Positions 6,830 to 29,570 of a stretch of DNA of 29,593 nt are shown piece by piece. The notes below the pieces were generated by a model. The model did not search any database and was not told the DNA's origin. It saw only the letters and a list, made by a program, of their open reading frames with translations. Both the position numbers and the translations under genes were made by a program. Within the stretch, counting starts at the first letter, position 1. Each line of letters starts with the position of its first letter. Source of the DNA: a virus. The DNA lies in IMG/VR virus record IMGVR_UViG_3300021373_001372, positions 1 to 29,593 of that record. One strand, 5' to 3'.

Positions 6830-6867
6830 TATCAACCTTGTATCGTGATTAAGAGCAGGAATAATAA

Positions 6868-6874
6868 CCACCTC
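6868..6874 (-). promoter_or_regulatory. Strong ribosome site without a standard start codon
   Basis: The sequence GAGGTGG is fused to the TGA of the 99-aa gene exactly as at neighbouring junctions. At the expected spacing the downstream frame reads ATT ATT rather than ATG, TTG or GTG; the first ATG is 33-39 bases further on at 6829. Either translation starts at AUU or the site works by re-initiation. Confidence 0.45.
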
Positions 6875-7172
6875 AATTGAACTCAACTGATACATGGGCC
6901 GTTGAAGACCCTGCTTCTGCAACTTCTAGAAACAGTCCACCTGTTGCTAGAACACCGTGCATATCGTATTCTATGTTGTATTGACCTGTAGTTGTATTGT
7001 GTATTCTAGCCAATTCTGTTCCGGTATTATCAGTTCCATCGAATACCTTGATTGTAACTGCCGCATTACTAACAACAACAATATTAGCATGAATGCTCTT
7101 AAGTCTACATTGAGTCCTAGAAACAATTGCGCTAGCACCTAATACTCCACTACTTCTGCTTGCATCTGCCAT
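6873..7172 (-). CDS. Small beta-rich virion protein (decoration/spike candidate)
   Basis: This 99-aa protein, beginning MADASRSSGVLGASAIVSR, shows regular alternation of strands (ANIVVVSNAAVTIKVFDGTD, GLFLEVAEAGSSTAHVSVEF) typical of a small beta-sandwich. Proteins with the pattern VFDGT...GTELA...GL.LEV are common near capsid genes of marine phages, where they are thought to be minor capsid or decoration proteins; that memory is not verified here. The start at 7172 follows a clean GGTGATTAT site. Its stop is fused to the ribosome site of the next gene. It lies behind the capsid and decoration genes and just before the membrane/GTPase cassette. Confidence 0.6.
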   Translation of the reverse strand: MADASRSSGVLGASAIVSRTQCRLKSIHANIVVVSNAAVTIKVFDGTDNTGTELARIHNTTTGQYNIEYDMHGVLATGGLFLEVAEAGSSTAHVSVEFN

Positions 7173-10766: not shown

Positions 10767-10795
10767 ATTACCCAATTTCCTTTGTTTCCCTTCGA

Positions 10796-13321: not shown

Positions 13322-13326
13322 ACTAA

Positions 13327-13713
13327 TCACTTATGCTTTAGATATGTTACTAATCGTCGTTTAAATTCATTTAGAATGATTTCTACCTGTTGTACCTTCT
13401 CTTCTTGTTCAACCCTACTGTCTTCTCCTGTTTTTACCAAATATGCAATTTCTTCTATAACATCTTTAAACATTGAATCCATGCTTACATCAACTGCTTT
13501 ACCAATAGTTTCTCCGCCCATCCCGTAGCCTTCTTTCTTTTGATTTACATTATAGTTTTCAGCCTTTGGTCTCTTAACTTTAACATGTTCAACTTCATCA
13601 TCATAAGGGAGTTCTGTAGAACTACCTACTAGTTTAATAGTCTCTTTTGCTTTGCGAACAAGTCTAATCGCTCTACTAATTTCTGCCTCTTCCTTAGTCA
13701 TTTTCTCCGGCAT
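13327..13713 (-). CDS. Unknown charged helical protein
   Basis: The start is placed at ATG 13713 because GGAGG lies at the right distance upstream; a more upstream in-frame ATG (13728) overlaps that site. The 128-aa product begins MPEKMTKEEAEISRAIRLVR. It has a basic N-terminal helix, a Gly/Lys linker (about 50-65) and a C-terminal coiled-coil-like helix ending in RRLVTYLKHK. Its TGA is fused to the ligase ribosome site, so the two are coupled. I recognise no family. It might be a small virion or ligase-associated protein, but nothing in the sequence decides this. Confidence 0.55.
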   Translation of the reverse strand: MPEKMTKEEAEISRAIRLVRKAKETIKLVGSSTELPYDDEVEHVKVKRPKAENYNVNQKKEGYGMGGETIGKAVDVSMDSMFKDVIEEIAYLVKTGEDSRVEQEEKVQQVEIILNEFKRRLVTYLKHK

Positions 13714-13714
13714 A

Positions 13715-13942
13715 TTACTGTCCTCCATTTACGAATCTCTCAATGTCACTCCAACTCATTTTATGAATTGCGTCACTATCGGGTACTGTGCTGTTGTTCA
13801 TTGAAGGAGTTGGTGAATCAACTACAACAAAACCGGACTTCATTAATAGATTATCCTTGTTGTAAACGGCTGTTTCTAGTTCTCTAATCCTGCCGACTAA
13901 TTCTTTCAAAATAACCAACATGTCTTCGTTTGTATCACTCAT
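13715..13942 (-). CDS. 75-aa protein ending in the MSW tag
   Basis: The protein begins MSDTNEDMLVILKELVGRIR, forming a short coiled coil (about 5-28), followed by a Ser/Pro/Asn-rich linker, and ends IHKMSWSDIERFVNGGQ. The MSW at 62-64 and the shape of the whole ending parallel the C-terminus of the prohead protease/scaffold (MSWSEIHKAVGGNI). The two therefore share a C-terminal peptide although their bodies differ. It overlaps the stop of the preceding tagged gene. Its function is unknown; a small scaffold or core component is a reasonable guess from the shared ending. Confidence 0.6.
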   Translation of the reverse strand: MSDTNEDMLVILKELVGRIRELETAVYNKDNLLMKSGFVVVDSPTPSMNNSTVPDSDAIHKMSWSDIERFVNGGQ

Positions 13943-14285
13943 CTCTCAAATCCCCCTTTCTCTTAGGATATACAATTGACCGTAAATCTCGGTACAGCAA
14001 CTCATACTCCTTACGGAGTTTGCTCGACAACGCAACCATATCAATGTTCCTCTCATCAATACTTACAAACTTCTTTTTCATTTTATCATCAGCCTTAACC
14101 AAATCCAAATCTCTTAGCATATCAATTAACTCCCCCATTCTAGTAAAATCCTGCCCGAAATATTCTGTTGGTTCGGCTGATTGAAGGGTCTTCTTCAAAG
14201 ACTTCTTCTTTTTCTTATCCATACTTTCTAGTATAGGGCTATACTCTTTTTCAATCTGTTCTTTCAATATGTATTCCCAAGTCAT
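13935..14285 (-). CDS. Unknown helical protein with N-terminal MSW-type tag
   Basis: This 116-aa protein begins MTWEYILKEQIEKEYSP, matching the shared tag M-x-W-x-x-[IV]-[LI]-[KR]. The body is strongly helical, with a Lys run (KKKKKSLKK, about 24-32) and alternating charged residues up to a basic end (YPKRKGDLRDE). It overlaps the stop of the 573-aa gene by four bases and its own stop overlaps the 75-aa gene, so the three are coupled. No enzymatic motif is visible. The tag links it to the group of presumed cargo or core proteins. Confidence 0.6.
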   Translation of the reverse strand: MTWEYILKEQIEKEYSPILESMDKKKKKSLKKTLQSAEPTEYFGQDFTRMGELIDMLRDLDLVKADDKMKKKFVSIDERNIDMVALSSKLRKEYELLYRDLRSIVYPKRKGDLRDE

Positions 14286-16007: not shown

Positions 16008-16232
16008 TCACCACTTGTTTTCGGTTTTTCTTCTCTTCTTAACAGGTAGTTGTACTACATCGGGTGTATCTGCTGAACCTCTAGATGGCTTATGGCTTGT
16101 ATCGGGAGGCAAACCACCAACTGAATAGTCTCTACTAATTTTAACTGTTCTATCTTCGGCGGCTCTTTGAGAGCGAACATTTGCCAATTCCTTTGCTAGT
16201 CTTCTTTCTTTCTGTGCTATGTCTTCTGTCAT
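16008..16232 (-). CDS. Small basic protein after the portal
   Basis: This 74-aa protein begins MTEDIAQKERRLAKELANVR, a helical, charged N-terminus, followed by a disordered Ser/Pro/Asp-rich centre and a basic C-terminus (VKKRRKTENKW). A clear AGGAGAATACCATA site precedes the ATG, which overlaps the portal stop region. No family is recognised. A small head accessory protein is plausible from position only. Confidence 0.5.
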   Translation of the reverse strand: MTEDIAQKERRLAKELANVRSQRAAEDRTVKISRDYSVGGLPPDTSHKPSRGSADTPDVVQLPVKKRRKTENKW

Positions 16233-17869
16233 TATGGTATTCTCCTTTCACTTCTTCTATCCACATTTTGATTACCTGCATCCGCCGGTAGTCCTGTCAT
16301 TCGCTTATCCGGCCCTACGCTCATTGACGGTTTATTTCTTGTGGTTGCCGGATTTTCTTGAGGTTTAGAACCTCCTTCCATCATATTCCTCATATTCTCA
16401 TCTAAATCTCTTTGGTCTAAATTAGAACCTGCTAGTGGGTCTATGCCACTTTCGGACTTATTTTCTTCTTGAGGTTTTTCTTCTACAGGTTCGGGTTTCT
16501 TAAAAGTAAAGTTACCGTCTTCATCCATATCCACTTCAAATCCTAGATTCTTAACAGAAGCCGCAATATTAACTTCTATTTCTCTCTTACGAAGAACGGC
16601 TATTTCATCCTCTTCTTCCGAAGGAGGTAGTTTCAAGACCCAATCCGTTACTCCGAATTGTTTAACTAAGAACGGGAATACATAATTATTATACACATTT
16701 TGAGCCATTTGAACTGCTCGATTAGTTACAAGGATTTGCATACCTTCATTATTTAATCCCCCACTAGTGGTATTGTCAGCCATGAAAACTTTACTCACTC
16801 CATAGAATGCTGATATTCTATCTCTTAAGTCATCCTTAACAGCCGTATATTCCATCTCTTTTAGACTATCCATAAACTTAATCCATTCAACAGAACCCTT
16901 TCCATTCTCGGCTTCTATACCCATTACAGGAATGTAATGAGGGTCTTGTTCCATTCTTTCTTTTACACTTCTCCAAAAACTAGACATTGATTCCATGTTT
17001 CTAGTTTGAACTGCTAGCAATCCTCTAGGCATTCTACTCTTTGTATATGATGAATTAATATAATTCTCCATAGCAATTAGCGTCATAATGTGATTGAATA
17101 GTGTCATAACCGGAGAATGCCCGTATAATCTACTAGGACTATACTTACTAAAGTGTAGAACTTCTCCCTCAATGTAGTGTTGTTCTTCACCATTGGCCCT
17201 ATTTACATAATGAATAGGGAACAGTGGACTGCCACAATCATTACAATTTTCATGGGCTTCTTGAGAGATGTACCCTCTATGATTAATACAAGTAAATCCC
17301 TTAGTGCCTCTAATACCTAATTCATCGGCGTAGATACTCATAGTAACAGGGTCGCCTCTAAACAATTCCTTTATTCTGTGCATTCGGATTTTACCATTAC
17401 CGTCTAGGTAGTATTCCTTAACAAGAACAATATACGCATCATCCATAATGTTTAGGTCGTCTTCTAATTCTTTGAATACATCAATGAATAGTTGTTCGGA
17501 CTTATTGACATATCCTTCAATAAACTTTTCAGCATACTCCAATTGTTTTGGGTCGGGTTTCTTTAGATTGGTTGAACCACACCTAGCACATTCTGTAACG
17601 GGTCTTTTATGTGTCTTTTGACACTCATTGCATCGGGCTTCGTATGCTTTTTCCCAAACATAACCCCTTCTAAATATCTCCTGCTTTAGTTGAGTAATGC
17701 AAGTTCGGACAATAACAGACTGTTGAGTAATGTTATAGACCATTGGCCCAGTCATCATGTAAGAGTTTTCACGCTCTTGTATTCCGATATTGTAGACCTT
17801 TCTATCAGCCGGTTTAGGGGTAGACCGTCGAAACAAATTGCTTATTTTGAATTGTCTCTTTTCCGCCAT
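16232..17869 (-). CDS. Portal protein with two zinc-ribbon-like inserts
   Basis: From ATG 17869 (GGGGATGA upstream, as at the connector gene; another ATG at 17878 overlaps that site) this is 545 aa. Portal features include the central stretch VLHFSKYSPSRLYGHSPV, the following helices (MTLIAMENYIN), DLRDRISAFYGVSKVFM with a Gly/Asn-rich loop, and a Pro/Glu-rich disordered tail. Two Cys/His clusters interrupt the N-terminal half: C80, C83, C94, C97 and C194, H197, C209, C212, each shaped like a zinc ribbon. The portal forms the ring at one head vertex through which terminase packs DNA. The call is supported by sequence pattern and by position after terminase. Confidence 0.8.
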   Translation of the reverse strand: MAEKRQFKISNLFRRSTPKPADRKVYNIGIQERENSYMMTGPMVYNITQQSVIVRTCITQLKQEIFRRGYVWEKAYEARCNECQKTHKRPVTECARCGSTNLKKPDPKQLEYAEKFIEGYVNKSEQLFIDVFKELEDDLNIMDDAYIVLVKEYYLDGNGKIRMHRIKELFRGDPVTMSIYADELGIRGTKGFTCINHRGYISQEAHENCNDCGSPLFPIHYVNRANGEEQHYIEGEVLHFSKYSPSRLYGHSPVMTLFNHIMTLIAMENYINSSYTKSRMPRGLLAVQTRNMESMSSFWRSVKERMEQDPHYIPVMGIEAENGKGSVEWIKFMDSLKEMEYTAVKDDLRDRISAFYGVSKVFMADNTTSGGLNNEGMQILVTNRAVQMAQNVYNNYVFPFLVKQFGVTDWVLKLPPSEEEDEIAVLRKREIEVNIAASVKNLGFEVDMDEDGNFTFKKPEPVEEKPQEENKSESGIDPLAGSNLDQRDLDENMRNMMEGGSKPQENPATTRNKPSMSVGPDKRMTGLPADAGNQNVDRRSERRIP

Positions 17870-17903
17870 AGCACTCATCCCCGTCTATGTTGTAATATCA
17901 AGA

Positions 17904-17920: not shown

Positions 17921-18208
17921 TCACCAAAGTTTCTTACAGGCTAAACATTTAGGAGTTGTAATTCTACCTTTACATTGATGGCACTTATGCCTAGCCTTGA
18001 ATGACTTTCTTCTTTTTGGATTTTTATGTGTTCCACCACCACGATTTTTTCCTTTCTTTTTGTAGTTGCCATATCCTTTAGCACCTGCATGTATTTTCTT
18101 ACCTTCATGTGTAAGCATCATAATTTTTTTTCCGCTTCTATCACTTGGATATACTGTACCGACTCTCATATCCTTTTTGTCCTTCTTAAGAATCTCTTGC
18201 CAACTCAT
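17921..18208 (-). CDS. MSW-tagged basic zinc-ribbon protein
   Basis: This 95-aa protein starts MSWQEILKKDKKDMRVGT, carrying the shared tag. The middle is very basic and Gly-rich (YGNYKKKGKNRGGG and following), and the C-terminus has C76-x2-C79 and C88-x2-C91, a zinc-ribbon pattern. The high Lys/Arg content and zinc site suggest nucleic-acid binding. It is the last of a run of seven tagged genes and precedes the portal. I infer a DNA-binding protein carried into the capsid; no family name is recognised. Confidence 0.65.
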   Translation of the reverse strand: MSWQEILKKDKKDMRVGTVYPSDRSGKKIMMLTHEGKKIHAGAKGYGNYKKKGKNRGGGTHKNPKRRKSFKARHKCHQCKGRITTPKCLACKKLW

Positions 18209-18211
18209 TCT

Positions 18212-18523
18212 TCATCTCTCCAAGAGTTTCTCTTCTCTTTCCTTTAGAACGCTTTCTATTTGTCTAATGTGCCAAAAGTATTCTTCGGGGTCTTTGCTTC
18301 TCTCTTCAATTAGGGCTTTAGTAGCCATGAACATATCATCTTTTAGTTCGGGAATATCCATCTCCATTTCTAATTTATTTGCTAATTTTTGAATACCCGA
18401 TAAAGCCCCTTCATATGTAGAAACTGCTTCTATTAGTTCCTCTTCTAAATTTTTAAATTGCTCGGATAATTTATCGTAAGGCTGTTCGTCATATTCTTTT
18501 TTTATTATCCTTTCCCAACTCAT
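18212..18523 (-). CDS. MSW-tagged coiled-coil protein
   Basis: This 103-aa protein begins MSWERIIKKEYDEQPYDKLS. Nearly all of it is predicted helix by eye, with heptad-like Leu/Ile spacing (LEEELIEAVSTYEGALSGI) and a Glu/Lys-rich end (VLKEREEKLLER). There is no Cys cluster, unlike its neighbours. Its start is preceded by GGGGAGAAGA and overlaps the stop of the 133-aa gene. The tag with a purely helical body argues that the tag is not tied to DNA binding. Its function is unknown. Confidence 0.65.
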   Translation of the reverse strand: MSWERIIKKEYDEQPYDKLSEQFKNLEEELIEAVSTYEGALSGIQKLANKLEMEMDIPELKDDMFMATKALIEERSKDPEEYFWHIRQIESVLKEREEKLLER

Positions 18524-18921
18524 TCTTCTCCCCTCACTTGGTTTTCTTTAGAAGTCTTATCATCATCAATTGGGCCTCCTTTAGCCCAAGTGTAGCAGGT
18601 TCTAGCCGAATGGCATTTGAAATCGTGCATCCAACAGTAGCCTAAGCGACCGTCTTTATCTGTAGAAAGAGGCATACATTCATCCATTCTAGGTGAAATA
18701 TCAAAGGCAATACAATTACTACAGTTTGATTCTTTAGCAACATCAGCAGTAGTATTCCATTTTTTAGCATATCGTTCCCAATAATCCTTATCGTCTAAAT
18801 TAAGAGGGCCGTATTGAATATGTTTTTCTTTAACAGCCCTATCTCTATTTTTAGTATTGAGTTTCAAGTCTTGAGTCGCTCTAGGACAAGCGAGTTCTTT
18901 TAGGATGATATGCCAAGACAT
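18520..18921 (-). CDS. MSW-tagged cysteine-rich protein (possible metal or Fe-S binding)
   Basis: This 133-aa protein begins MSWHIILKELACPRATQD. The C-terminal half has C67-x2-C70, C82, C96, C103 and C109 set in the aromatic context GYCWMHDFKC and ARTCYTWAKGGP. The spacing C-x2-C ... C ... GYC loosely recalls high-potential iron-sulfur proteins, but a zinc site or disulfides are equally possible. A GAGGAATAAAA ribosome site precedes the ATG. The tail is acidic. I have seen similar Cys/Trp patterns in marine virus proteins of unknown role but cannot confirm this here. Confidence 0.65.
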   Translation of the reverse strand: MSWHIILKELACPRATQDLKLNTKNRDRAVKEKHIQYGPLNLDDKDYWERYAKKWNTTADVAKESNCSNCIAFDISPRMDECMPLSTDKDGRLGYCWMHDFKCHSARTCYTWAKGGPIDDDKTSKENQVRGEE

Positions 18922-18923
18922 TT

Positions 18924-19301
18924 TTATTCCTCTTCGTCTTCGGGTAAGTCTAGACCATCTAGGAGTATGTAATCTCCTTTGTCATGTTGAACAACATTCT
19001 CCATTTGACTAAGCATCTCTTTAACTTCGTCTTTAGATAGTTTAGTTGCTTCTTCAAGAGGCTCTAGTCCCGACGCACCACCTTCTTTTTCTAAAGTGGA
19101 GACAATTGTTTCTTTTGGCCCTTCGGATTTTTTCTCTCTAAGTTGCCTAAAGTCATCAGCATCAATTTTATTATTCTTGTTTCTATCTAGTTTTCTTTGC
19201 TTAGGGCTTAGTGCTTTACTTGTTTTTTCACTACAAGTAGGACAATCGCAACCCATTTTTTCTGTTCCGCAGTGTGCTTTTAATATTGTTTTCCATTTCA
19301 T
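18924..19301 (-). CDS. MSW-tagged protein with EF-hand-like loop and Cys cluster
   Basis: This 125-aa protein begins MKWKTILKAHCGTEKMGCDC. Cys residues at 11, 18, 20 and 23 may bind a metal. Residues 39-50 (DRNKNNKIDADD) fit an EF-hand calcium loop: D39, N41, N43, I46, D47 and D50, with a helix on each side. The remainder is acidic and helical and ends DLPEDEEE. Only one loop is present, so calcium binding might need dimerisation. It overlaps the previous gene end by four bases. Its role is unknown; the tag places it with the presumed cargo set. Confidence 0.65.
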   Translation of the reverse strand: MKWKTILKAHCGTEKMGCDCPTCSEKTSKALSPKQRKLDRNKNNKIDADDFRQLREKKSEGPKETIVSTLEKEGGASGLEPLEEATKLSKDEVKEMLSQMENVVQHDKGDYILLDGLDLPEDEEE

Positions 19302-19654
19302 CGTGTAAATCCTCTCCCTTTACTTCTTTGTGTTTTTCTTTTGCTAGATTCTTTCCTATCTAATGCTACTTTATGTGCCGCATTTAATCTCTTTTTTGTT
19401 TCGGGGTCTTTTGCTCTTTTAGCCGCCACTCTTGCTCTTTGTTCAACTAAATTAATTATTTGTGATTGCCTTTTATGTGATTTTGATTTGAAAGCCGAAC
19501 TTGCGAATGTTTCTCTCACATCATTTGCTGTTTTAAACTTAACCGGAACTGTGTCTTTTGGGTTTTCATCTGTATATAACCGCCTTGAAGAACCTTTAGG
19601 TTTTTTACCCGTTCCTTTTTTGGGTTCTGTTTTTAGAACATTTCTCCAACTCAT
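19298..19654 (-). CDS. MSW-tagged highly basic protein
   Basis: This 118-aa protein begins MSWRNVLKTEPKKGTGKKPK. It is rich in Lys, Arg and Ser with a helical centre (IINLVEQRARVAAKRAKDPE) and a disordered basic end (RKTQRSKGRGFTR). Such composition is usual for nucleic-acid-binding virion proteins. A GGAGGAAAGGAGC site precedes the ATG, which overlaps the previous stop. No family name is certain. Together with its neighbours it forms a run of small basic proteins sharing only the first eight residues. Confidence 0.65.
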   Translation of the reverse strand: MSWRNVLKTEPKKGTGKKPKGSSRRLYTDENPKDTVPVKFKTANDVRETFASSAFKSKSHKRQSQIINLVEQRARVAAKRAKDPETKKRLNAAHKVALDRKESSKRKTQRSKGRGFTR

Positions 19655-20088
19655 GCTCCTTTCCTCCTTTTGTAAGTTTTACAAGCGGCACAAGTTGGGC
19701 GACATCTTCTCTTTCTGCCCTTTGAAGCATCTTTTCTACCACAAGGTTTAGGGCCGTCTTTTTTTCCACATGAAGAACAGTCAATCCATCCTCCCTGTGT
19801 TTTCTTTCCTTTGCCTTCTTTTCCACCTCTTCGTGAAAACCAACCGTGAAGTCCTTCTTTTTTTTCTCTAGAGAAATTATCTCCGCCTTTCAAAAGACTA
19901 TCCTTCGATACGGTTTTTAACATAGCCCCTCTTTGCTTTCCTCCTGTTTTATCTCCTAAAATTGGATGATTAGGTATGTATGGATATGCTCTTTCGGGCG
20001 AAATAAAAAGGTATTTTTTTCCATCCCTTGAAGTAATTACTCTTGGTTTGTAACCATCTCCGCCCTTTAAAACTTCTTTCCAAGACAT
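19651..20088 (-). CDS. MSW-tagged basic protein with C-terminal Cys motif
   Basis: The start is placed at ATG 20088, giving 145 aa with MSWKEVLKGG at the N-terminus. An in-frame GTG at 20097 lies inside the ribosome site GGTGAT and would hide the tag. Residues 78-120 (LHGWFSRRGGK, QGGWIDCSSCGKK, PCGRKDASKGRKR) resemble a short module common in marine virus proteins, where a Gly-Trp-Val/Ile-Asp-Cys strand precedes PCGR. I recall it as a domain of unknown function. Cys at 104, 107, 116, 129, 133 and 136 could bind zinc. Nucleic-acid binding is likely from charge, not proven. Confidence 0.65.
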   Translation of the reverse strand: MSWKEVLKGGDGYKPRVITSRDGKKYLFISPERAYPYIPNHPILGDKTGGKQRGAMLKTVSKDSLLKGGDNFSREKKEGLHGWFSRRGGKEGKGKKTQGGWIDCSSCGKKDGPKPCGRKDASKGRKRRCRPTCAACKTYKRRKGA

Positions 20089-20093
20089 AGTAA

Positions 20094-20327
20094 TCACCTT
20101 TTCTTAGATTTATTGCCCCAATTTTTAGCACCAACTTTACGGCATCTAACTAAAGCACCACTAGCGTAAGCGGAAGGCCACTTATCATATCTGCTACGAA
20201 CTTTGTAATAACAAGCATCTTGTTTTTTATCGGACTTACTATTCCTACGACCTTTTTTCTTAGCCCTCTTAGAACCTCTCTTTCTTCGAGACTTGCTCTT
20301 TTTTCTAAGAATATCTTGCCAACTCAT
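20094..20327 (-). CDS. MSW-tagged very basic small protein with PSAYASG motif
   Basis: This 77-aa protein begins MSWQDILRKKSKSRRKRG. Residues 10-36 are almost all Lys, Arg and Ser. Residues 39-70 hold CYYKVRSRYDKWPSAYASGA followed by LVRCRKVGAKNW, a compact two-Cys module I recall from several marine virus proteins of unknown function. A GAGGGATAAAA site precedes the ATG, and the TGA is fused to the ribosome site of the next tagged gene. It probably binds DNA or RNA through its basic region. It is the first of seven consecutive tagged genes. Confidence 0.65.
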   Translation of the reverse strand: MSWQDILRKKSKSRRKRGSKRAKKKGRRNSKSDKKQDACYYKVRSRYDKWPSAYASGALVRCRKVGAKNWGNKSKKR

Positions 20328-20337
20328 TTTTATCCCT

Positions 20338-20532
20338 CTAAGATTTTGTCACCGCTACAATAACAATACTACCCATAACAACTTCCATATCTAAATGGAC
20401 TATTTTAGTAGTATCTCCACTCCCTCCGCCTGTTGCCGTTCTAAGTAATGCTTGTAAATCGCTAGCCATATCTTCGCTTTCAAAAATTCTTTTTGGGTGG
20501 TAAGTATATACATTTACATTCAATGTTCCCAT
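20338..20532 (-). CDS. Small unknown protein
   Basis: This 64-aa protein begins MGTLNVNVYTYHPKRIFESE. It shows two beta-like ends (TLNVNVYTYHP and EVVMGSIVIVAVTKS) around a helix and a Gly/Ser linker. It starts five bases after the mini zinc-ribbon gene, whose end GGCGTGATATT may serve as the ribosome site. It has no tag and no recognisable family. The gene is supported mainly by its fit in the tight tandem arrangement. Confidence 0.5.
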   Translation of the reverse strand: MGTLNVNVYTYHPKRIFESEDMASDLQALLRTATGGGSGDTTKIVHLDMEVVMGSIVIVAVTKS

Positions 20533-20536
20533 AATA

Positions 20537-20647
20537 TCACGCCTTTACTATTTGTGGTTTTCCTGCCTTCTCCCAACACTTTTGACAAAAGCCAAACGGG
20601 TGAACATCTCTTGAAGTATAACATCTAGTACAATAAGTATTTTTCAT
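20537..20647 (-). CDS. Mini zinc-ribbon protein (36 aa)
   Basis: A 36-aa frame from ATG 20647 to TGA 20537 reads MKNTYCTRCYTSRDVHPFGF followed by CQKCWEK and a short basic end. C6-x2-C9 and C21-x2-C24 make a classical compact zinc ribbon. A GGGGG run sits upstream of the ATG. It fills the gap between the LAGLIDADG gene and the 64-aa gene. Very small Cys-ribbon proteins are frequent in archaeal and viral genomes and often bind nucleic acid or proteins; its own role is unknown. Confidence 0.6.
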   Translation of the reverse strand: MKNTYCTRCYTSRDVHPFGFCQKCWEKAGKPQIVKA

Positions 20648-20679
20648 CTAAAACCCCCAACTATCAAACGGATAACTAA

Positions 20680-22209
20680 TCATCTCTTTCTCCTCAAAGT
20701 ATTTTGCCAACTTCCTTTTGCTTGCTTGGCATCCGACAATCCATATTTTCTTTTAACAGAACGAATTGCGGCTTCTTCACTCATGTTTCTAAATCGAACC
20801 AAGTCCTTTACTTCCTGCTTTTGCTGTTCATTCAAATCAGCCTTTGTAATAATACCACCAATGTTTTCCATTTCATCCATAACAGACATTTTACAATTGT
20901 CTTGGTATTTTGAAATATCATCTATGTATATTCCTTCTTTAGAAAAGTCAAAACCCACATGGTCTTTATGGTTCTCCCATTTCATTAACTTAAATATCTC
21001 ATCACACCGGCTTTTATACCAATCGGCTTTCTTGTATGACTTCTTCATTCTAATTAATTCCAGTAACAAATTAGCATTTCCTTTTTTCATTCGGAAATGA
21101 GGTAGACATTTTGTAAGTAACTCCGAAACTTCCGCTTGAGAATAAAAATTAAGACGATTTACAGGTCTAGTGTCTTGAGGTGATTTTTGGTCTAGATGTA
21201 ACTTACCAATACCTCCAAGTGCCTTATGTATTTCGTACATAAATGCCTTTCCTCTCTCTCCGGTAGCAACTAACCCAACTCTAGGATTATGGTTTCTATC
21301 CATAGTAATGTAACCATCCGAGTCTATGAAAGCGGCGGTATAGGCCCAAATATTCTTTTTAATATCGGAATCTAATTTGTAGTAGTTTCCATCAATTGAT
21401 GTAATGTCTAATTTCTTAACCATTTTAGATACTGAATGCCAAGAACTTCTATCATATAGTTGAGAAGGCATTCTATCATGTATCTCTCTAGCCGATATTC
21501 CTTGATTTTGAGAGACTTGTTTTATGATAAAGTCCTCGGTTTTTTCCTTGAGAGATTTTCTAATTGATGAATCAGTTATGGACTTTATCTCACTTCTAAA
21601 GTCTTTTTTAGCGGCATTCATTTCTTTCTGTAGTTTTGAATATTGCTTACCATAAGAGGTTTCTTTTTGGTCTAGTTCTGCTTCCCAATACTTACAAAGA
21701 GAATCAATGACTCTTCTTCTTTGGGGCAACTCTTTCATTTTATTTAACTTGGATAAGTCCTTCTCATCAAATCTCATTTTTACTAGAGCCTCTCTATATG
21801 GGCCTATCCAATAAACGCTATCTATGCACTTAGAGAGGTGTTCCGAATATCCTTCAATAACATTGTCTATTGCCTTAGTCATTTTTTCTTTGTCTTTGCC
21901 TTTTAGATTCCTTCTTTCCTTTCTCATGGCCTTAACAACATCGGGTATAGTTTGCCCATACAATTCAAATGTTTTAGGAAACGATTCGATATGTTTTTTG
22001 GCTTGAGAAGCATTGATGTTGTATTGGCTACAGACCTTAGCAACAACTTCATGTTCGGATGAAATAGATAAATTGTTTCTCAAACTTAATTTAATTTCAT
22101 CACCAATAAGTTTCTTGGCTTCTTCCAAATCATTATTTGCCTCTTCTTCTAGTTCAGCAACCTGTTCTAGCCTTTGACTAGCCTCTCTTAGTTCATCCGG
22201 TGTTGCCAT
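20680..22209 (-). CDS. LAGLIDADG-domain protein with winged-helix-like region, next to terminase
   Basis: This 509-aa protein begins MATPDELREASQRLEQVAEL. Residues 1-215 are helical and charged. About 225-280 look like a winged helix (GISAREIHDRMPSQL ... SVSKMVKKL). Residues 286-390 form a single LAGLIDADG-type domain: core motif AAFIDSDGYI (292-301) with candidate acidic residue D298, then GLVATGERGKAFMYEIHKAL and LNFYSQAEVSELL. The end reads GSWQNTLRRKR (W501), loosely like the shared MSW tag. It may be a homing-endonuclease-derived DNA-binding or cutting protein. It is not an intein, as no splice-site residues or host protein halves are seen. AGTGATAGC precedes the ATG. Confidence 0.7.
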   Translation of the reverse strand: MATPDELREASQRLEQVAELEEEANNDLEEAKKLIGDEIKLSLRNNLSISSEHEVVAKVCSQYNINASQAKKHIESFPKTFELYGQTIPDVVKAMRKERRNLKGKDKEKMTKAIDNVIEGYSEHLSKCIDSVYWIGPYREALVKMRFDEKDLSKLNKMKELPQRRRVIDSLCKYWEAELDQKETSYGKQYSKLQKEMNAAKKDFRSEIKSITDSSIRKSLKEKTEDFIIKQVSQNQGISAREIHDRMPSQLYDRSSWHSVSKMVKKLDITSIDGNYYKLDSDIKKNIWAYTAAFIDSDGYITMDRNHNPRVGLVATGERGKAFMYEIHKALGGIGKLHLDQKSPQDTRPVNRLNFYSQAEVSELLTKCLPHFRMKKGNANLLLELIRMKKSYKKADWYKSRCDEIFKLMKWENHKDHVGFDFSKEGIYIDDISKYQDNCKMSVMDEMENIGGIITKADLNEQQKQEVKDLVRFRNMSEEAAIRSVKRKYGLSDAKQAKGSWQNTLRRKR

Positions 22210-22218
22210 GCTATCACT

Positions 22219-23640
22219 TCAAAAGTTTAATCCCATAACTCCACTACGCCCAACATTTCTAGGCGCATCGAATAGTCCCAAGTCATCTAGCAATAAGAAT
22301 GTTTCACTGACTGTTTTAGTAGCGGCATTGGCTAAAGCCAAACTCATAACCATGTCGTCATGTGCGCCAATTCCCTCAAACTTACCTTTGTCTGTTATGG
22401 CAAACATAGACAATTCTTCTATCAATGTTGCCGTAACTCTTCTACTTTCTTCATTACCATACGGCAAATGTATTTTTTCGTTTTCAAAATTCATCTGTAG
22501 ATTAAGAATAATGTCCTGCTTCTTTTTCCTAGTAGTGTTAAAGTCATGCACATTCAAATCCGATATATTCCTCAACTCTTGAGTAAACGACTTAGCGAAT
22601 ACATTTGTTTCAAACAATATTACCTCCGGTTGAAATATTTTTCCAATAAGACGAACCTTCTGTAGATTTTCCCTAAACTCTACATTCTTAGACCTATCAA
22701 CATATACTATGTTTTTATTATCATTCTCGTCCACTTCTAAAACTGTAATTACATTGTAGTCACCATCAGTAGAGATAGCAGGGTCAATCCCAACATAATA
22801 CTTGTAGCCTTCTCTCCTAGTTGGTTTCAGTACGAAGTTTTTGTCCTTTGCTTTATCTAGATATTCGGGATTGAATAGAGATGTTCCAGTAGAAACAGGA
22901 ACACATAGATATTCTCTAGTAAACTTAAGAGAACCAATTTCAGCCTTTCTAGCCATCAAGGAATCATAGTCCCATCTGTTCGGCCATAGTGGTTCATTTA
23001 ACGAATTGAAACAAGGATATTTTCTTACAGTATATGCTTCGTTCTCTTCTAGTTGAGTATAAATATCTGTGTAACTGAAAGGAGTTCCAATGACTCTCAA
23101 TGATGCAGTATGGTGAAGTGTCGGTATCATGTCACCATAAAACCAATCAGTGACCTTTTGAATTGCACTAAGACTAAACTCTTTCAAAGGGTCATCAATA
23201 ACAATCTCTTGAGGGTGAAGTCCACGAATCTGTGAACCAACGGAACGCTCTAGTATTTGATTGCCATTTGTCAAAGTAATATTTCCAATAGCCCAACCCT
23301 TAGCCGGTTTGAAATGTTTTATTGCAGGGTGGTTGAATACCTTATCTATGTCTCTCATGTGAACCATAGTCTGTTTTTGGTTCGATGAAATGTATAGCAT
23401 TTGATATGGAGGTGGCTGAAATATTAAATTCCAAACAACCCAACTGTGCATGAAGACTGATTTACCATGACCTCTACTACAAATGATAACTGTTCTTTGG
23501 GTTTCATTCATAAGTTCTAGCCACTCTTGCTGATGAGCCGCAAAGTCCCAACCTAAAACATGTTCAAAAAAATACGGGAACGATGTCTTGGATAGTTCCA
23601 TATCCATTTGATGTTCTAAGTTGAAGCCTTCTATCTCCAT
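22219..23640 (-). CDS. terL: Terminase large subunit (DNA packaging ATPase/nuclease)
   Basis: From ATG 23640 (GGTGATTAC directly upstream; upstream in-frame starts at up to 23667 overlap the previous gene) this is 473 aa. The ATPase domain has Walker A CSRGHGKS (54-61), Walker B IVIDD (146-150) and a coupling motif VIGTPFSYTD (about 183-192). The nuclease domain has the RNase-H-like acids D286 in VGIDPA, E344 in FETN and D428/D429 in GAHDDMVMSLALA. The enzyme pumps DNA through the portal and cuts the concatemer. No small terminase subunit is recognised nearby. This is the firmest call in the window. Confidence 0.93.
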   Translation of the reverse strand: MEIEGFNLEHQMDMELSKTSFPYFFEHVLGWDFAAHQQEWLELMNETQRTVIICSRGHGKSVFMHSWVVWNLIFQPPPYQMLYISSNQKQTMVHMRDIDKVFNHPAIKHFKPAKGWAIGNITLTNGNQILERSVGSQIRGLHPQEIVIDDPLKEFSLSAIQKVTDWFYGDMIPTLHHTASLRVIGTPFSYTDIYTQLEENEAYTVRKYPCFNSLNEPLWPNRWDYDSLMARKAEIGSLKFTREYLCVPVSTGTSLFNPEYLDKAKDKNFVLKPTRREGYKYYVGIDPAISTDGDYNVITVLEVDENDNKNIVYVDRSKNVEFRENLQKVRLIGKIFQPEVILFETNVFAKSFTQELRNISDLNVHDFNTTRKKKQDIILNLQMNFENEKIHLPYGNEESRRVTATLIEELSMFAITDKGKFEGIGAHDDMVMSLALANAATKTVSETFLLLDDLGLFDAPRNVGRSGVMGLNF

Positions 23641-23644
23641 GTAA

Positions 23645-26077
23645 TCACCTAAAATTAGCCTTGACAAAATAAACTACTTCTTCGGAAACACCGACACTCT
23701 TTGAAATGTTACTAAAAGCATCTATCTCTTCTACCATTTTAACAATTTCAGTACTCACAATGTCAATGTCAAATATATTTTTAGCAACATCTATGACCTC
23801 GCTTAAATCATCCATAGAGGATAAAGAGCCACGCCCATAATAGATAGGCAGTCCTTTCAATATTCTTAGAGAATCGTGAACTTGTAATATTTTATTTTCA
23901 ATATCCATTTTTTTGATACTGCTTATTTCTTGTTCAATTGCTCTTAGTTTACTTGAGTGTTTAGAAAGAAGCCTTAGAATATTAGGGTCAGTAAAAATAT
24001 CCTGTATAACCATAATAGCACTTACTTCATTTAACCTCATTGTTTTATTTTTAGCAAAGTCATAGGGATTTTTTCCATATAACTTAAGCCCTTTGTTTGA
24101 GTTTGTTTCTAAAAGAATAGTCCCTAAATAGAGAACCATGTCCTCTTTATAGTCATCTACAAGTTCCTTATCACCATCCACTAATTCGGCATAGACTTGT
24201 CTTAAATCCTTTATTTTATTCACTACTTCTCCTATGTCTATATTAGCCTTATTTACTTCCTTTAAAAAATTCAATATGGTAGTTAAGTCATTTGCTTCTA
24301 TATTACCACCATCGGATTCTATTAAACCTCTAGTTATTTTTTTACGGGCCTTTGCGAAGTCATCACTTGTAAGTAACAATAATTCAGTAAATGATTTATT
24401 CTTAGAAAAAGTATAATCTAGACCTATTCTCATTTTTGGGTCTTGGAGTGGCTCAAAGAAATATTCTTTAATAGCACTTAAAACATCATCTACTTCCTTC
24501 TTTATACCTAATTCTCTAGTTACAGGAGAGATGCTAGAATAGTTGATACCATACATTGATTGGCCTACTTTTTCCTTATCGGGGTCGTAAGTTTGCCCTC
24601 TAGGTGCGGTACTAGATGTCCCTACTCTAAGTCTTTGTTCATTTAACAAGTTCAATAATTTATCAAACAAATCCTCTATTGTTCTATTGATTGCCTTACT
24701 ATTTCTATTTCCTTCTTTGAATGGGCTAAATATGTTTCTAGTTCTCACATCATCTATAATATATATTGGCAAAAAATGTTTCCCCTTTACCGGCTTTACT
24801 TTTTGTAATTTATTCAAGTGCTTATTGAGTTGAGCCACCTTCTCTTCACTTTCAAAACCAAAGTCTTCTTTCATTGTTTTTCTTGTTATGTTTTTCAAAT
24901 TAGGCAAACTCAATTCATTTATGAAAATGCCGTCTAAGTGATTTTGAACATAAAAATAACCTAAAATATCTAAAGAGTCATTGAACCTAGATTCAGCACC
25001 CATTCGTAGCCTTTCAGTTACAAGTGAATCGCCTACAAGTTCTTCATCAGCCTCTCTATTTTGACTAACAGAGCCACTGTCTATAACAATACCTAGTTCT
25101 TTTTCGACATATGCTGTAATTATTTTACGGGTAACTGTTAATTCATCATCCATATTTTCCGCAATTGCTTGAGCCTTGAACTCTATTACATACTGTCCGT
25201 CTTTTTCAAATCTCTTATTTGATGCCAATAGTTCATCCTTAAGTTGCTCTATTTCACTACTTCCTTCCGGCATAGCATTGACTAATTTATTTATTTTAGA
25301 AACCACTGTAGAATGTAGTCCGTGTACTTTAGACCAACTGTCGTAAATGTTTTTTCTTGTGGATACCTTATGGTATTTACCCCAACCCATCAATTCCTTT
25401 ATGGTATCTCTTATCCTAATAACTTTCATTCCTTTAGCATCCCCTAGTTCTCTAGTGGATTCCTTTGCACCAAGTTTTTCTTCTCTATAAGCATCAGCAT
25501 ATTCAGAAATTAGCAGTATTCTTTTAGTAAGTTCTTCTTCTTCGGCATCTGTAAAAATGTGTCCGTGTTCTTTAAAATAATTAGGTGTTGTAATAAGTTC
25601 GCTAATGTCTTCTAATGTTCTATTTTTACCTGCGCCTTTCAATGAAATTGACTCTTCATTTATATTCTCATAAAAGTTTTCGATGTTAATTTTTTTCCCA
25701 TTGATTAATATTACACCGCCAAAAACTTCCTTGAATATATTAGCCAAAGCAGTATTTTTACTCGCTTCGTCATCAACATATAATTTGTCTCTAGTTCTTT
25801 CTTCCTCACTATCAGTAATTCCCCCTACAGTACTTCCTTCAAGGCCATAAAGGTCATTTTCAAGTATATCCTCAAAAGCCGATACTAGTTTAGAAGTATC
25901 GGAAGAAGAGTATTCTATATCGGAATCGTCTTCAAACTCTTCTACCAATCTAAGAATATACCTTTTTTTGCTAGGTCTTGTCAAGTATTTTTGTCTCAAC
26001 CCCGCCCAATATTCTTTGTCACTATTTGTAGCCATTAATGCTTGTCTAGCGTCATCAACACTGTTTAACTGATTCAT
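23645..26077 (-). CDS. Large unrecognised protein upstream of terminase (810 aa)
   Basis: The protein begins MNQLNSVDDARQALMATNSD, with GGAGG eleven bases before the ATG. It is acidic and mostly helical throughout, with short hydrophobic beta-like islands (GGVILINGKKINIENF, KHFLPIYIIDDVRTRN). No nucleotide-binding loop, protease triad, membrane segment or repeat is visible. It follows a 665-aa gene of similar character at two bases distance and its end overlaps the terminase ribosome site, so all three are likely co-expressed. Candidates include an internal core or ejection protein; I cannot support any function from motifs. Confidence 0.65.
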   Translation of the reverse strand: MNQLNSVDDARQALMATNSDKEYWAGLRQKYLTRPSKKRYILRLVEEFEDDSDIEYSSSDTSKLVSAFEDILENDLYGLEGSTVGGITDSEEERTRDKLYVDDEASKNTALANIFKEVFGGVILINGKKINIENFYENINEESISLKGAGKNRTLEDISELITTPNYFKEHGHIFTDAEEEELTKRILLISEYADAYREEKLGAKESTRELGDAKGMKVIRIRDTIKELMGWGKYHKVSTRKNIYDSWSKVHGLHSTVVSKINKLVNAMPEGSSEIEQLKDELLASNKRFEKDGQYVIEFKAQAIAENMDDELTVTRKIITAYVEKELGIVIDSGSVSQNREADEELVGDSLVTERLRMGAESRFNDSLDILGYFYVQNHLDGIFINELSLPNLKNITRKTMKEDFGFESEEKVAQLNKHLNKLQKVKPVKGKHFLPIYIIDDVRTRNIFSPFKEGNRNSKAINRTIEDLFDKLLNLLNEQRLRVGTSSTAPRGQTYDPDKEKVGQSMYGINYSSISPVTRELGIKKEVDDVLSAIKEYFFEPLQDPKMRIGLDYTFSKNKSFTELLLLTSDDFAKARKKITRGLIESDGGNIEANDLTTILNFLKEVNKANIDIGEVVNKIKDLRQVYAELVDGDKELVDDYKEDMVLYLGTILLETNSNKGLKLYGKNPYDFAKNKTMRLNEVSAIMVIQDIFTDPNILRLLSKHSSKLRAIEQEISSIKKMDIENKILQVHDSLRILKGLPIYYGRGSLSSMDDLSEVIDVAKNIFDIDIVSTEIVKMVEEIDAFSNISKSVGVSEEVVYFVKANFR

Positions 26078-26079
26078 AA

Positions 26080-28077
26080 TTATGCCTCCTCTATCTCATG
26101 CGATTTATATCCGATAAACCCTTCCTTTCTCAATTGTTGAAGAATCCCTATTTTAGTTTCATTTTCATAATGTTCCTTTCTTTCTACAACATCATCCAAC
26201 TTAGATTCAACAGCCTCTTTCAAACTTTCACCAATTGAACTTAAATTATCTTGAAGTGTCTTAAGAAACTCTCTTATTGCCTTTCTTGCGACTTTTATCC
26301 CAGTCTCTTCTTGATTGAGTTTTTCTTCTAAGGAATTAGATTCTTGTTCAATGTTTGGGTTAAATAAATATGCCAAATTGTAATATGACTGAAACACTCT
26401 TTTCGGGTCATTTCTAATAGCAAAGTAATCAACATCGGAATAGCCAATCTCACTATTCAAAGCCATACCGTATATGACTTTGGCATTTGTAGACAATTTA
26501 GACATTCCAGTACTTGTAATAGATTCCCTTTGTTTTCCTTGGGTTTCTGTATATTTTCTTTGTCTTCCTTGTTTTGGTTTTTTACCTTGACTGAAATCCT
26601 TACCACCTTCCGACATAACTCTTGATGTTCTAGTAAGAACATATGGATTTTTGATTCCCTTTCTTTGAAGTATTGTTTGAACTGACGGTTCTTTTAAAAT
26701 AAAATCAAATACAGAACTCACATCATATTTGCTAATTTCCTCTACACTGTATATATTCATAGGGCTACCTTGTCTTTGTTCAATAATATTTAATTCCGGC
26801 TTAGGGCTAATGTAGTCTTGATAGGCTATTTTAATTTCCCCTTTTGTATCTCTTTCCTTTACAATATCAACGAGGACTTTCTTTTCATCCTCATCTAAAT
26901 CATACTTGTCTAGAAGTTCGTTGTCTTCAACGCTAGCCCCTGCTATCACTTCAAACAAATCCTCATAGAAATATTGCTTGTTGTCTTCTTTCTTTTCTCT
27001 TTTACTAGACGAACCGCTTACTGACTCTCCAAAAGTAGCATCGCTCATATACATGTCTCTAGCAATTCTATCCAAACTATCGTTTATGATATCTACGCTG
27101 TCCGTTTCCAAAACTTCTAGTAGGTAAGGATTAATTGTCTTACCTTTTTTAACAATAGACATATCAAGAGTACCGTCTTCTAGTTCGGGATATAATGAAG
27201 ACACATTGGTTTGACTGTTTAAGAACAACAAGTATTCCTTAGCGATTGTCGGAGTTACTTCATTAACTTCATATTCTTGTTCCACTTCGAGAACCATTTC
27301 CTTTCTACCGGCAATGGCTTCATATAAAAAGGGCCAGTCTAATTCAATACCTGCTATTTTGTCCTTGTTTTTTTGAAATGACTGTAGGCTTTCTATTGCC
27401 GACCTAACATTGCTTTCGGCTGATTTTATTTCAATGAAATCAACAGTCTTAGTAACGGCAGTTCTTTCTACCTCTCGACTCTTTCCCTTTTTGTCTTTGA
27501 GTTCAACTTTTTCTTTTTGCTTTCCGCCAGTGGTATAAGACGCACTGTATTTTAAATACAAGACTTGAGGTGATGTTTCAAACTCTTCTTCACTTGTTGG
27601 TTTCTTACTTCCGGCATCAGTGCTAGCAATTGCTTGAATTAATTTTGTTTTTGTTGTATTGGCATCCGGTATTTCTTGGCTTATGGTCTTTCTTTCAAAG
27701 GCAAAAGTACCTAATGCTTGAACCAATTCATCGGAAGGGGAATCAACCAATTGTCTAATTGTCCCAACCAAGGTTCTTTGCCCTTCTCTAAGTTTTAGAA
27801 GAGTTGCCAATGGTCTAGTTACCTTTCTTCTAAACTTCATAGCAGTGATGTTTTGCTTTTCAGCGAGCCTATCAACGACTTCGGAAAACTCGCCCTTCAA
27901 TGCTTTATTAGCCGCATCATTAGTGTTGCTCGTAATTGAAGAAAGGAGAGAAGTTATCTTCTGTTTTCCTTTAAACTGCCCTTCCATTATTTCTCGAAAG
28001 TCCTCCATGCGACCCTTGTATAAGTCCATTAAGAGTCTATCTATTGAATAATTAGGACTTACGAAAGAATCACGCAT
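26080..28077 (-). CDS. Large unrecognised protein (665 aa)
   Basis: This protein begins MRDSFVSPNYSIDRLLMDLY and is preceded by GGTGGAGTAA. The N-terminal 110 residues are helical and basic (MKFRRKVTRPLATLLKLREG). The middle is mixed, with charged linkers of Lys/Glu (about 180-205) and Ser/Lys (about 355-370). Residues 510-545 are Lys/Gln/Arg-rich and likely disordered. The C-terminus is a long helical region (about 585-665). I see no catalytic motif. Its pairing with the 810-aa gene suggests partners in one structure, perhaps internal virion proteins, but this is position-based only. Confidence 0.65.
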   Translation of the reverse strand: MRDSFVSPNYSIDRLLMDLYKGRMEDFREIMEGQFKGKQKITSLLSSITSNTNDAANKALKGEFSEVVDRLAEKQNITAMKFRRKVTRPLATLLKLREGQRTLVGTIRQLVDSPSDELVQALGTFAFERKTISQEIPDANTTKTKLIQAIASTDAGSKKPTSEEEFETSPQVLYLKYSASYTTGGKQKEKVELKDKKGKSREVERTAVTKTVDFIEIKSAESNVRSAIESLQSFQKNKDKIAGIELDWPFLYEAIAGRKEMVLEVEQEYEVNEVTPTIAKEYLLFLNSQTNVSSLYPELEDGTLDMSIVKKGKTINPYLLEVLETDSVDIINDSLDRIARDMYMSDATFGESVSGSSSKREKKEDNKQYFYEDLFEVIAGASVEDNELLDKYDLDEDEKKVLVDIVKERDTKGEIKIAYQDYISPKPELNIIEQRQGSPMNIYSVEEISKYDVSSVFDFILKEPSVQTILQRKGIKNPYVLTRTSRVMSEGGKDFSQGKKPKQGRQRKYTETQGKQRESITSTGMSKLSTNAKVIYGMALNSEIGYSDVDYFAIRNDPKRVFQSYYNLAYLFNPNIEQESNSLEEKLNQEETGIKVARKAIREFLKTLQDNLSSIGESLKEAVESKLDDVVERKEHYENETKIGILQQLRKEGFIGYKSHEIEEA

Positions 28078-28129
28078 TTACTCCACCTAGTTTATCGCAA
28101 TACCCCATACTTCAAATAGTTATAGGGTT

Positions 28130-28984
28130 CTACCTTCTACTAGGATATTTTTTCCTAAACTCATTCCTAAGTTCTAACTCTACTTTTTTGGCGGCATCAA
28201 GTTCCTTGGCTTTTTTATTTTTAGCGTCAAGAAGTTTATTTTTGTCTTTTTCATACTCTCTTAGTACTTTTTCAAATTCATCTTTTGATGCTTCAACTCC
28301 TTCAATAAGTGTGACTATCAATGTATTCAATACACTTTTTTGTTCATCGGGCATAGGGCCGTCAGCAATAGTTACTCCTTGTTTACCATTAATTAATATG
28401 GAATCCTCCAACCACGAATCGCCCTTAGAAACCAATTCCTTATTGTTTTTTAATGACTCCTCTATAAAATCCAAAGTAGAATAAAACTCCGAGTTAAAAT
28501 ACCGTTCTGCGATTTTTTCCTCAATTAAGGAAACTGATTCAACACTCACCCTATTCAAACTACTTAATTCTACATATTTTTCTTTAAAGAACATCTCTTC
28601 TATTCTTTTATTCAAAGAGTTTTTTCCGTCATAGCGGTTTGGATAGGGGAGATTCATGCTATGTATTCCAAATCTATAGAAGTTTTGCATTATTTCAAGG
28701 TTATGAAGTCCTTGAATAAATTCTAAAAGGATTGGGTATTCATTCAATGCCTTGTATTGTACCTCTAATTTTTTAGAGTTTTCTTCCGCTTCTTGTAATT
28801 TAAGCAATGCTCTACCCTTTGGATTTCTAGACATTGATTCTTTCTTTTGTCGTTCTTTGTCTTCTTCTTTTTTCTTTTGGTCTTCCTTTTCTTTTTGCCT
28901 TTCAGCCCAAGTCTTACCACCCCAACTCCTAACTGGCTTTTCATCGTCCCATCTCTTTCTTTTTAGAATATTTTCCCAATTCAT
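28130..28984 (-). CDS. MSW-tagged coiled-coil protein (284 aa)
   Basis: The protein begins MNWENILKRKRWDDEKPVRS, the longest body found behind the shared tag. Residues 27-60 are a dense Lys/Glu/Gln coiled coil, residues 60-200 are a mixed helical region with a Tyr/Phe-rich part, and residues 220-284 are again coiled coil with a basic end (FRKKYPSRR). The start overlaps the preceding stop by four bases and has GGAGAGATTAAA as its ribosome site. No family is recognised. A long rod-like form would suit a structural or scaffold-core role. Confidence 0.65.
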   Translation of the reverse strand: MNWENILKRKRWDDEKPVRSWGGKTWAERQKEKEDQKKKEEDKERQKKESMSRNPKGRALLKLQEAEENSKKLEVQYKALNEYPILLEFIQGLHNLEIMQNFYRFGIHSMNLPYPNRYDGKNSLNKRIEEMFFKEKYVELSSLNRVSVESVSLIEEKIAERYFNSEFYSTLDFIEESLKNNKELVSKGDSWLEDSILINGKQGVTIADGPMPDEQKSVLNTLIVTLIEGVEASKDEFEKVLREYEKDKNKLLDAKNKKAKELDAAKKVELELRNEFRKKYPSRR

Positions 28985-29241
28985 TTTAATCTCTCCTGCA
29001 TTTTGTTATGAGCATTAATACCATCAGTTATTTTTTCTTGAACTCCATTATGTACTATTCCAATAAAAGTCGGCCCGTTATCAGTAATAAAATCCTTTTC
29101 ATCATCTGTTAATTGTCTTACTATTCCTTCTACTACTTCCGGTTCGTCTTTAGCATTCACCGTTAAGTCATATGCTTCCATGTAATCCAAAATAAAATCA
29201 AAGAAAACCATATCTAATTTCAATATTTTTTTCCAAGTCAT
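28981..29241 (-). CDS. MSW-tagged small acidic protein
   Basis: This 86-aa protein begins MTWKKILKLDMVFFDFILDY. After the tag comes a hydrophobic and aromatic helix (about 10-22), then an acidic mixed domain (VEGIVRQLTDDEKDFITDNG) and a helical end. GGAGGAATTACA precedes the ATG. It is unlike the basic tagged proteins downstream, which shows that the tag is joined to chemically different bodies. Its function is unknown. Confidence 0.6.
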   Translation of the reverse strand: MTWKKILKLDMVFFDFILDYMEAYDLTVNAKDEPEVVEGIVRQLTDDEKDFITDNGPTFIGIVHNGVQEKITDGINAHNKMQERLK

Positions 29242-29252
29242 TGTAATTCCTC

Positions 29253-29570
29253 CTATATCAATTTCTTTGCTTCAATTAAATACAAATATTGTTTTCTTAA
29301 TCCCAACTTTGAAGTAACCGCCCCTGCTAGTTTCTTTAAATTGGCTTGAAAACTGAAAAAATCGGGGGAGTAAAGGTCTTTTAACTTATCTTTATCCTCT
29401 ATCCTTTCGTAGTATTCATCAAATTTATTCAATAGAGCCTCACCTGCTTGTTTTAATTTAGGGTCTTCATTGTAAGACATAAAGAAAAGTAACTCTTGAA
29501 TATTGTCGTGCAAAGGGGCATGTCCTTCTTCAACATACCAAGCAGTTTTCAATATGCCCTTCCAACTCAT
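29253..29570 (-). CDS. MSW-tagged small protein near right edge
   Basis: This 105-aa protein begins MSWKGILKTAWYVEEGHAPL. The body is helical with aromatic residues (ELLFFMSYNEDPKLKQAGEA, FDEYYERIEDKDKLKDLY) and a basic C-terminal helix. GGAGAGATTACA precedes the ATG. Only 23 bases remain to its right in the window, too few to say which gene lies upstream, though the spacing suggests the tandem series continues. Its function is unknown. Confidence 0.6.
   Translation of the reverse strand: MSWKGILKTAWYVEEGHAPLHDNIQELLFFMSYNEDPKLKQAGEALLNKFDEYYERIEDKDKLKDLYSPDFFSFQANLKKLAGAVTSKLGLRKQYLYLIEAKKLI

Follow-up and report, generated by a model that had tools for sequence, protein, structure and literature searches.

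Terminal peptides that address proteins to capsids, and a proposed one in magroviruses

Short terminal peptides that bring proteins to capsids or capsid-like shells have been described in several systems. Targeting of the internal proteins of phage T4 depends mainly on residues 4 and 7 of an N-terminal capsid targeting sequence (CTS) (PMC9026906); ipIII begins MKTYQEFIAE and ipI begins MKTFKEF. DarB of phage P1 has an N-terminal signal, at most 30 residues long, that directs a reporter into the capsid (PMC9024508). In encapsulins, cargo proteins bind a luminal pocket of the HK97-fold shell through a short peptide at the N- or C-terminus (PMC7355545), and the protease-scaffold and scaffold of herpesviruses have a common C-terminus that binds the major capsid protein (MCP) (PMC12474303). 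Here we describe an eight-residue peptide, hereafter the tag, at the N-termini of eleven proteins encoded in 29,593 bases of one IMG/VR virus record, IMGVR_UViG_3300021373_001372; this whole stretch, which we call the window, is by its sequence the head-gene block of a magrovirus. Magroviruses are tailed viruses of marine group II archaea (Poseidoniales); they are very common in the surface ocean, and the function of most of their genes is unknown. We propose, with a probability of about 0.72, that the tag, M-[STNKD]-W-x-[DEN]-[IV]-[LI]-K, is a portable peptide that targets cargo proteins to the capsid by mimicking the C-terminal docking peptide of the scaffold.

The tag resembles the T4 CTS in being a short N-terminal peptide on unrelated, often basic proteins encoded with the head genes. 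Both follow an aromatic-x-acid-hydrophobic order (W3-x-D5-I6 in magroviruses), and the key residues lie three apart, W3/I6 in magroviruses and Y4/F7 in ipIII. T4 has few such clients, however, whereas whole magrovirus genomes have 11-20 N-tagged genes (mean 14.75, n = 8). Nor is the T4 peptide known to copy the C-terminus of a scaffold, to which the magrovirus tag is related, and copies of the magrovirus tag occur at C-termini too. The Dar proteins of P1 have no shared consensus (PMC9024508), whereas the magrovirus clients all share one motif. With encapsulins the likeness lies in the terminal peptides, N or C, on diverse proteins encoded near an HK97-fold gene; encapsulins are, however, cellular compartments with few cargoes, and their peptide and binding site are not known to be related to those of magroviruses. 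As in herpesviruses, a protease-scaffold and a separate scaffold-like protein of magroviruses end in the same kind of peptide. The herpesvirus peptide is shared through overlapping genes, whereas in magroviruses two unrelated proteins have it, and the magrovirus clients too bear a similar peptide, mostly at the opposite end.

An N-terminal peptide on unrelated proteins

The earlier note on this DNA had listed eleven open reading frames (ORFs) that open with the tag, and the window translations bear out every one. All are encoded on the minus strand, which holds nearly all window genes:

29253-29570, minus strand: N-tagged protein of 105 residues, MSWKGILK; its homologue in genome G006 is also tagged, MSWENILK
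28981-29241, minus strand: N-tagged acidic protein of 86 residues, MTWKKILK (window ORF list)
28130-28984, minus strand: N-tagged charged protein of 284 residues, MNWENILK (window ORF list)
20094-20327, minus strand: N-tagged very basic protein of 77 residues, MSWQDILR (window ORF list)
19651-20088, minus strand: N-tagged basic, Cys-rich protein of 145 residues, MSWKEVLK (window ORF list, clustering)
19298-19654, minus strand: N-tagged basic protein of 118 residues, MSWRNVLK (window ORF list)
18924-19301, minus strand: N-tagged EF-hand protein of 125 residues, MKWKTILK (EF-hand_6, E = 3.5e-4)
18520-18921, minus strand: N-tagged Cys-rich protein of 133 residues, MSWHIILK; high potential iron-sulfur protein is the annotation given to phage relatives
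18212-18523, minus strand: N-tagged protein of 103 residues, probably a coiled coil, MSWERIIK (weak Nuf2_DHR10-like and T4 scaffold matches)
17921-18208, minus strand: N-tagged basic, Cys-containing DUF5754 protein of 95 residues, MSWQEILK (E = 3.6e-7)
13935-14285, minus strand: N-tagged protein of 116 residues, MTWEYILK (window ORF list)

Among the 35 minus-strand genes found by an automatic caller, a simple longest-ORF method, 9 carry the tag, against 0.0005 expected when residues were shuffled within proteins (20,000 trials, maximum 1 match); the reversed pattern had 0 matches in the window. Three of the bodies have untagged relatives in other phages. Residues 35-76 of the 77-residue protein match a domain present in 365 marine phage records, and its cyanophage relative of 355 residues has no tag; the DUF5754 protein has an untagged relative in a Flavobacterium phage; and an untagged relative of the 133-residue protein, in phage DSL-LC01, adjoins capsid maturation proteases and an MCP. 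Relatives of the 116-residue protein in other clades (L054, L108, L123 and others) open with MTWD-[FY]Y-x-x-G-...-FILK, which looks like a tag split by residues inserted between W and ILK.

The tag recurs throughout our survey of about 200 related loci. The motif search of related viral genomes that the earlier note had suggested gave 211 matches in 20 magrovirus records (65-185 kb), nearly all of them confined to a single strand of each genome; the reversed pattern matched once in the same records. The collected set comprises 298 unique tagged proteins, whose bodies form 132 clusters, and alignment of 146 representatives left MxWxxILK as the sole consensus. The claim that the bodies are unrelated is thus upheld, and homology of all bodies is ruled out by the 132 clusters and the lack of any alignment past the tag; one large cluster of basic bodies was probably joined in part by low-complexity matches. 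In weighted frequencies, position 2 holds S at 46%, T at 22% and N at 17%; position 4, K at 38% and E at 23%; and position 5, D at 34%, N at 26% and E at 14%. Position 3 is W by construction of the pattern, position 6 is I in 84% (I, V or L by construction), position 7 is L in 70% and I in 22%, and position 8 is K in 98% (K, R, Q, S or H being allowed).

Searches of the clients against Pfam and PHROGs returned few usable matches (EF-hand, DUF5754 and DUF5872). A PAP2 match (E = 1e-11) may belong to a 479-residue protein of genome G014, which has a weak tag and lies outside the head block. A tagged protein at L111:828-1418 and L123:1701-2264 carries HEETH, a motif of zinc metallopeptidase type, and for this reason some clients may be enzymes. 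At 184.7 kb, the record IMGVR_UViG_3300021958_000021 (G015) is roughly double the normal size, and its tags fall into two groups, one at 77-99 kb and the other at 171-184 kb; it is either a giant relative or the product of an assembly that joined two genomes.

The position of the tagged genes can be read against three head genes, which in the window are as follows:

22219-23667, minus strand: terminase large subunit, untagged (homology searches)
16232-17878, minus strand: portal protein, untagged (homology searches)
8237-9574, minus strand: HK97-fold MCP (SU10_MCP match), the putative peptide receptor

In the mapped genomes, the run of tagged genes sets in where the late operon begins, passes terminase and portal and extends as far as the protease. 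A tag-like peptide occurs in 163 of the 314 genes located up to 45 genes upstream of the MCP on the late strand, against 9 of the 241 other late-strand genes and 10 of the 526 genes on the opposite, early strand (Fisher p = 4e-71 and 2e-39, statistics that ignore kinship among genomes).

Codon variation had been taken in the earlier note as a mark of selection on the peptide. This holds for positions 6-8, where the codons of Ile6, Leu7 and Lys8 resemble the background of the bodies, and fails at Ser2, where AGT makes up 79% of codons in tags versus about 31% of position-2 Ser codons in untagged genes. Part of this excess arises from ATGA stop-start overlaps, which are present at 96 of the 298 tagged genes and force A as the first base of codon 2 and thereby mostly S, T, N or K. 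Thus, the M-[STNK] class is partly an effect of genome packing. A variant, MW[KEQF]DILK, dispenses with position 2. The W-x-x-[IV]-[LI]-K core is, judged from the sequences, a peptide-level signal.

The MCP of the window is 73-93% identical to the MCPs of 80 viral contigs among the matches listed and about 25% identical to those of haloviruses HCTV-1 and HVTV-1. We identify the virus as a magrovirus because its capsid and portal proteins are close to those of marine magrovirus contigs and only distantly related to those of haloviruses; the name rests on halovirus kinship and on the description in PMC10160649, where the magrovirus-halovirus relationship is set out, and not on a named reference magrovirus. 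A pattern scan of IMG/VR returned 108 stretches, 96 of which encode proteins with magrovirus homology; of the 12 without it, one came from a record that also yielded a magrovirus-like stretch. When the other 11 records were searched whole, four had 3-13 matches, in clusters that look magrovirus-like, and the short stretch that had been tested at first showed no homology. The remaining seven matched only once each, as would be expected of chance or fragments, and we rejected them as examples of the tag in non-magrovirus viruses. A looser tag pattern matched once in HVTV-1 and not at all in HCTV-1, a shared N-terminal pattern above the shuffle level was not found in HCTV-1, and no related peptide was found at the ends of the halovirus proteases. 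These pattern scans and protease ends rule out a tag of the same kind in haloviruses. The sole match in a tag scan of genome contigs, which left Poseidoniales proteins outside its scope, was L204 (NZMJ01000101.1), a magrovirus contig that has been assigned to the metagenome-assembled genome of a bacterium, Maricaulis. The magrovirus paper (PMC10160649) and the other literature searched, from which subscription papers were mostly excluded, make no mention of the tag motif.

Related peptides at C-terminal and internal positions

Peptides related to the tag also end three other proteins of the window, all of them omitted from the earlier note:

9585-10775, minus strand: S78 prohead protease (Peptidase_S78, 2.8e-10) with a helical scaffold region, C-terminal end MSWSEIHKAVGGNI
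9606-9629, minus strand: core of the protease C-terminal peptide, MSWSEIHK
13715-13942, minus strand: scaffold-like protein of 75 residues, C-terminal end MSWSDIERFVNGGQ, with its core MSWSDIER at 13736-13759
20680-22209, minus strand: LAGLIDADG-like protein whose C-terminal extension ends GSWQNTLRRKR, with the tag-like copy GSWQNTLR at 20692-20715

In most relatives the protease C-terminus reads M-[SDEN]-W-x-[DE]-[IL]-[HN]-[KR] or close to it. Across 50 proteases, the only invariant columns past residue 351 are M383 and W385, and the tag score of the protease C-terminus has a chance of about 8e-4 of arising in ten C-terminal positions, as estimated from early proteins. An unrelated protein of 75-80 residues ends across the group in nearly the same peptide. 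Of 39 unique pairs of protease and small protein, 35 agree in the class of the residue before W: 9 have S in both proteins and 26 have D or E in both, while 4 are mismatched. In a deeper clade (MCP 59%) the ends are still ISWSDIH and MDWSEIN. When aligned with these C-terminal peptides, the tag shares with them M-S-W-x-[DE]-I-x-K. Further, a structural model of the protease contains a long helix at residues 288-370, with predicted local distance difference test scores (pLDDT) mostly of 78-89, followed after a helix break by a short terminal helix over the motif (residues 385-392).

Copies of the tag itself are found at C-termini (KSWKEVLL, KSWQEILRK, KWMEVLKWN and KSWLELLKDF) and internally, between fused domains (KKSWFDIL and KKGWKEVLK). 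These copies rule out an effect of the start codon or of the DNA as the source of the tag. The LAGLIDADG-like protein is placed between terminase and portal in the mapped genomes, and the domain that precedes its GSWQNTLRRKR end resembles, by inspection only, a protein (L010) that in other genomes stands alone and carries an N-terminal tag.

Proposed cargo loading and competing explanations

In the mechanism that we propose, the protease-scaffold and the small scaffold-like protein would dock in the prohead through their C-terminal M-[SDE]-W-S-[DE]-I-H-K, most simply on the inner face of the HK97-fold MCP. The clients would display a mimic of this scaffold peptide, in most cases N-terminally, in some C-terminally or at the junction of fused domains, and would enter the prohead through the scaffold's own docking site. 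A tag peptide of the form MSWKDILKK and the scaffold-type peptide MDWSDIHKMVGG would then bind one common site. The clients would afterwards remain with the packaged DNA or be delivered to the host. Packaging into virions, the MCP as receptor, helical docking and delivery are all steps that we infer; the model for docking on the capsid is the herpesvirus scaffold, and that for entry of the clients is encapsulin cargo. For the broader proposition, that a tailed virus of archaea has an address code that serves many clients, is independent of the terminus and works by cargo mimicry of the capsid-docking peptide of the virus's own protease-scaffold, we judge the odds to be even.

The tag could instead bind the scaffold core itself, or pair with itself in helical bundles, in place of the MCP. 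An affinity of the T4 CTS for the scaffold core has been described (PMC9026906); W3, I6 and L7 would share one face of a short amphipathic helix, which could pair with itself; and the long rod helix of the protease model would allow bundling. We nevertheless consider this unlikely, because both scaffold-type proteins bear the peptide at the extreme C-terminus, where the herpesvirus scaffold binds the MCP, and because a shared receptor is the simpler account of the likeness between cargo and scaffold peptides. The related peptide on the protease-scaffold C-terminus, together with the concentration of tags in the head block and their near absence from early genes, also makes improbable another reading, in which the tag forms an amphipathic helix for membrane binding or host-factor docking and takes late proteins to an assembly site or membrane and not to capsids. 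Such a helix would suit a sequence that is short and amphipathic with a conserved Lys8, and a few tagged genes do adjoin those for a viral Ras-like GTPase and small membrane-like proteins.

Tagged genes also cluster near terminase and portal, as might be expected if its bearers were accessory proteins for ejection or DNA packaging, docked by the tag at one vertex on the portal or the packaging motor. Many tagged genes lie far upstream of the terminase, however, and the related peptide is carried by the protease-scaffold and not by portal or terminase, which renders this reading decidedly improbable. Finally, the shared N-terminus might be a by-product of common ancestry of gene starts, or of a translation-initiation or operon-packing effect. 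The excess of AGT at Ser2 (79% versus about 31%) and the 96 of 298 starts that fall in ATGA overlaps are in keeping with this explanation, but the C-terminal and internal tags have largely refuted it already, the Leu, Ile and Lys codons are background-like and the bodies are unrelated; we find it barely credible.

Several results weigh against the loading of tagged cargo into capsids through the scaffold's docking site. Of the nine tags in late genes outside the block, six are strong and N-terminal, mostly of the form MWxDILK; several of these adjoin the GTPase gene, downstream of the MCP. Confinement to the head block is, as a consequence, strong and not absolute. Position 7 is L in most tags versus H in the protease, so the two peptides are similar and not identical, and the pairing of protease with small protein was computed without correction for phylogeny. 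The protease model has an overall pLDDT of only 46.6, and a model of the 133-residue client failed (pLDDT 44). A protease cleavage consensus was not found at or after the tag, and positions 9-16 are without a conserved residue, whereas the gp21 cleavage site lies inside the T4 CTS. The earlier note had likened the tag to the capsid-targeting code of T4. The concentration in the head block, the kinship to protease and scaffold C-termini and the T4-like spacing make such a code our best reading; a conserved protease site, as in T4, was not seen. We therefore regard the tag as one that would work like the T4 sequence and do not file it as one.

If tagged proteins are indeed loaded in this way, one eight-residue signature would sort more than 100 unknown protein families into one class, probable capsid cargo, and would predict what magroviruses carry alongside their DNA. 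Magroviruses would then contain an encapsulin-like loading system inside a true virus, where a new cargo gene could be recruited by the addition of about eight codons. This would offer a simple rule for the viral gain of new internal proteins and would bring together, in one system, the capsid targeting of phages, the scaffold docking of herpesviruses and the cargo loading of encapsulins. The tag is also a candidate loading signal for engineered HK97-type capsids.

Two other genes of the window deserve mention. The late operon includes, at 5573-6235, the gene for a small GTPase of Ras/SRPRB-like type, which is about 58-80% identical among the magrovirus genomes examined; next to it are encoded two small proteins with hydrophobic stretches (6236-6457 and 6467-6922). 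An ATP-dependent DNA ligase (10805-13330) lies between the gene for the 75-residue scaffold-like protein and the prohead protease in these genomes, and the early half of the genomes holds a second ligase-like gene (22-25% identity). The ligase of the head module may be a packaged enzyme.

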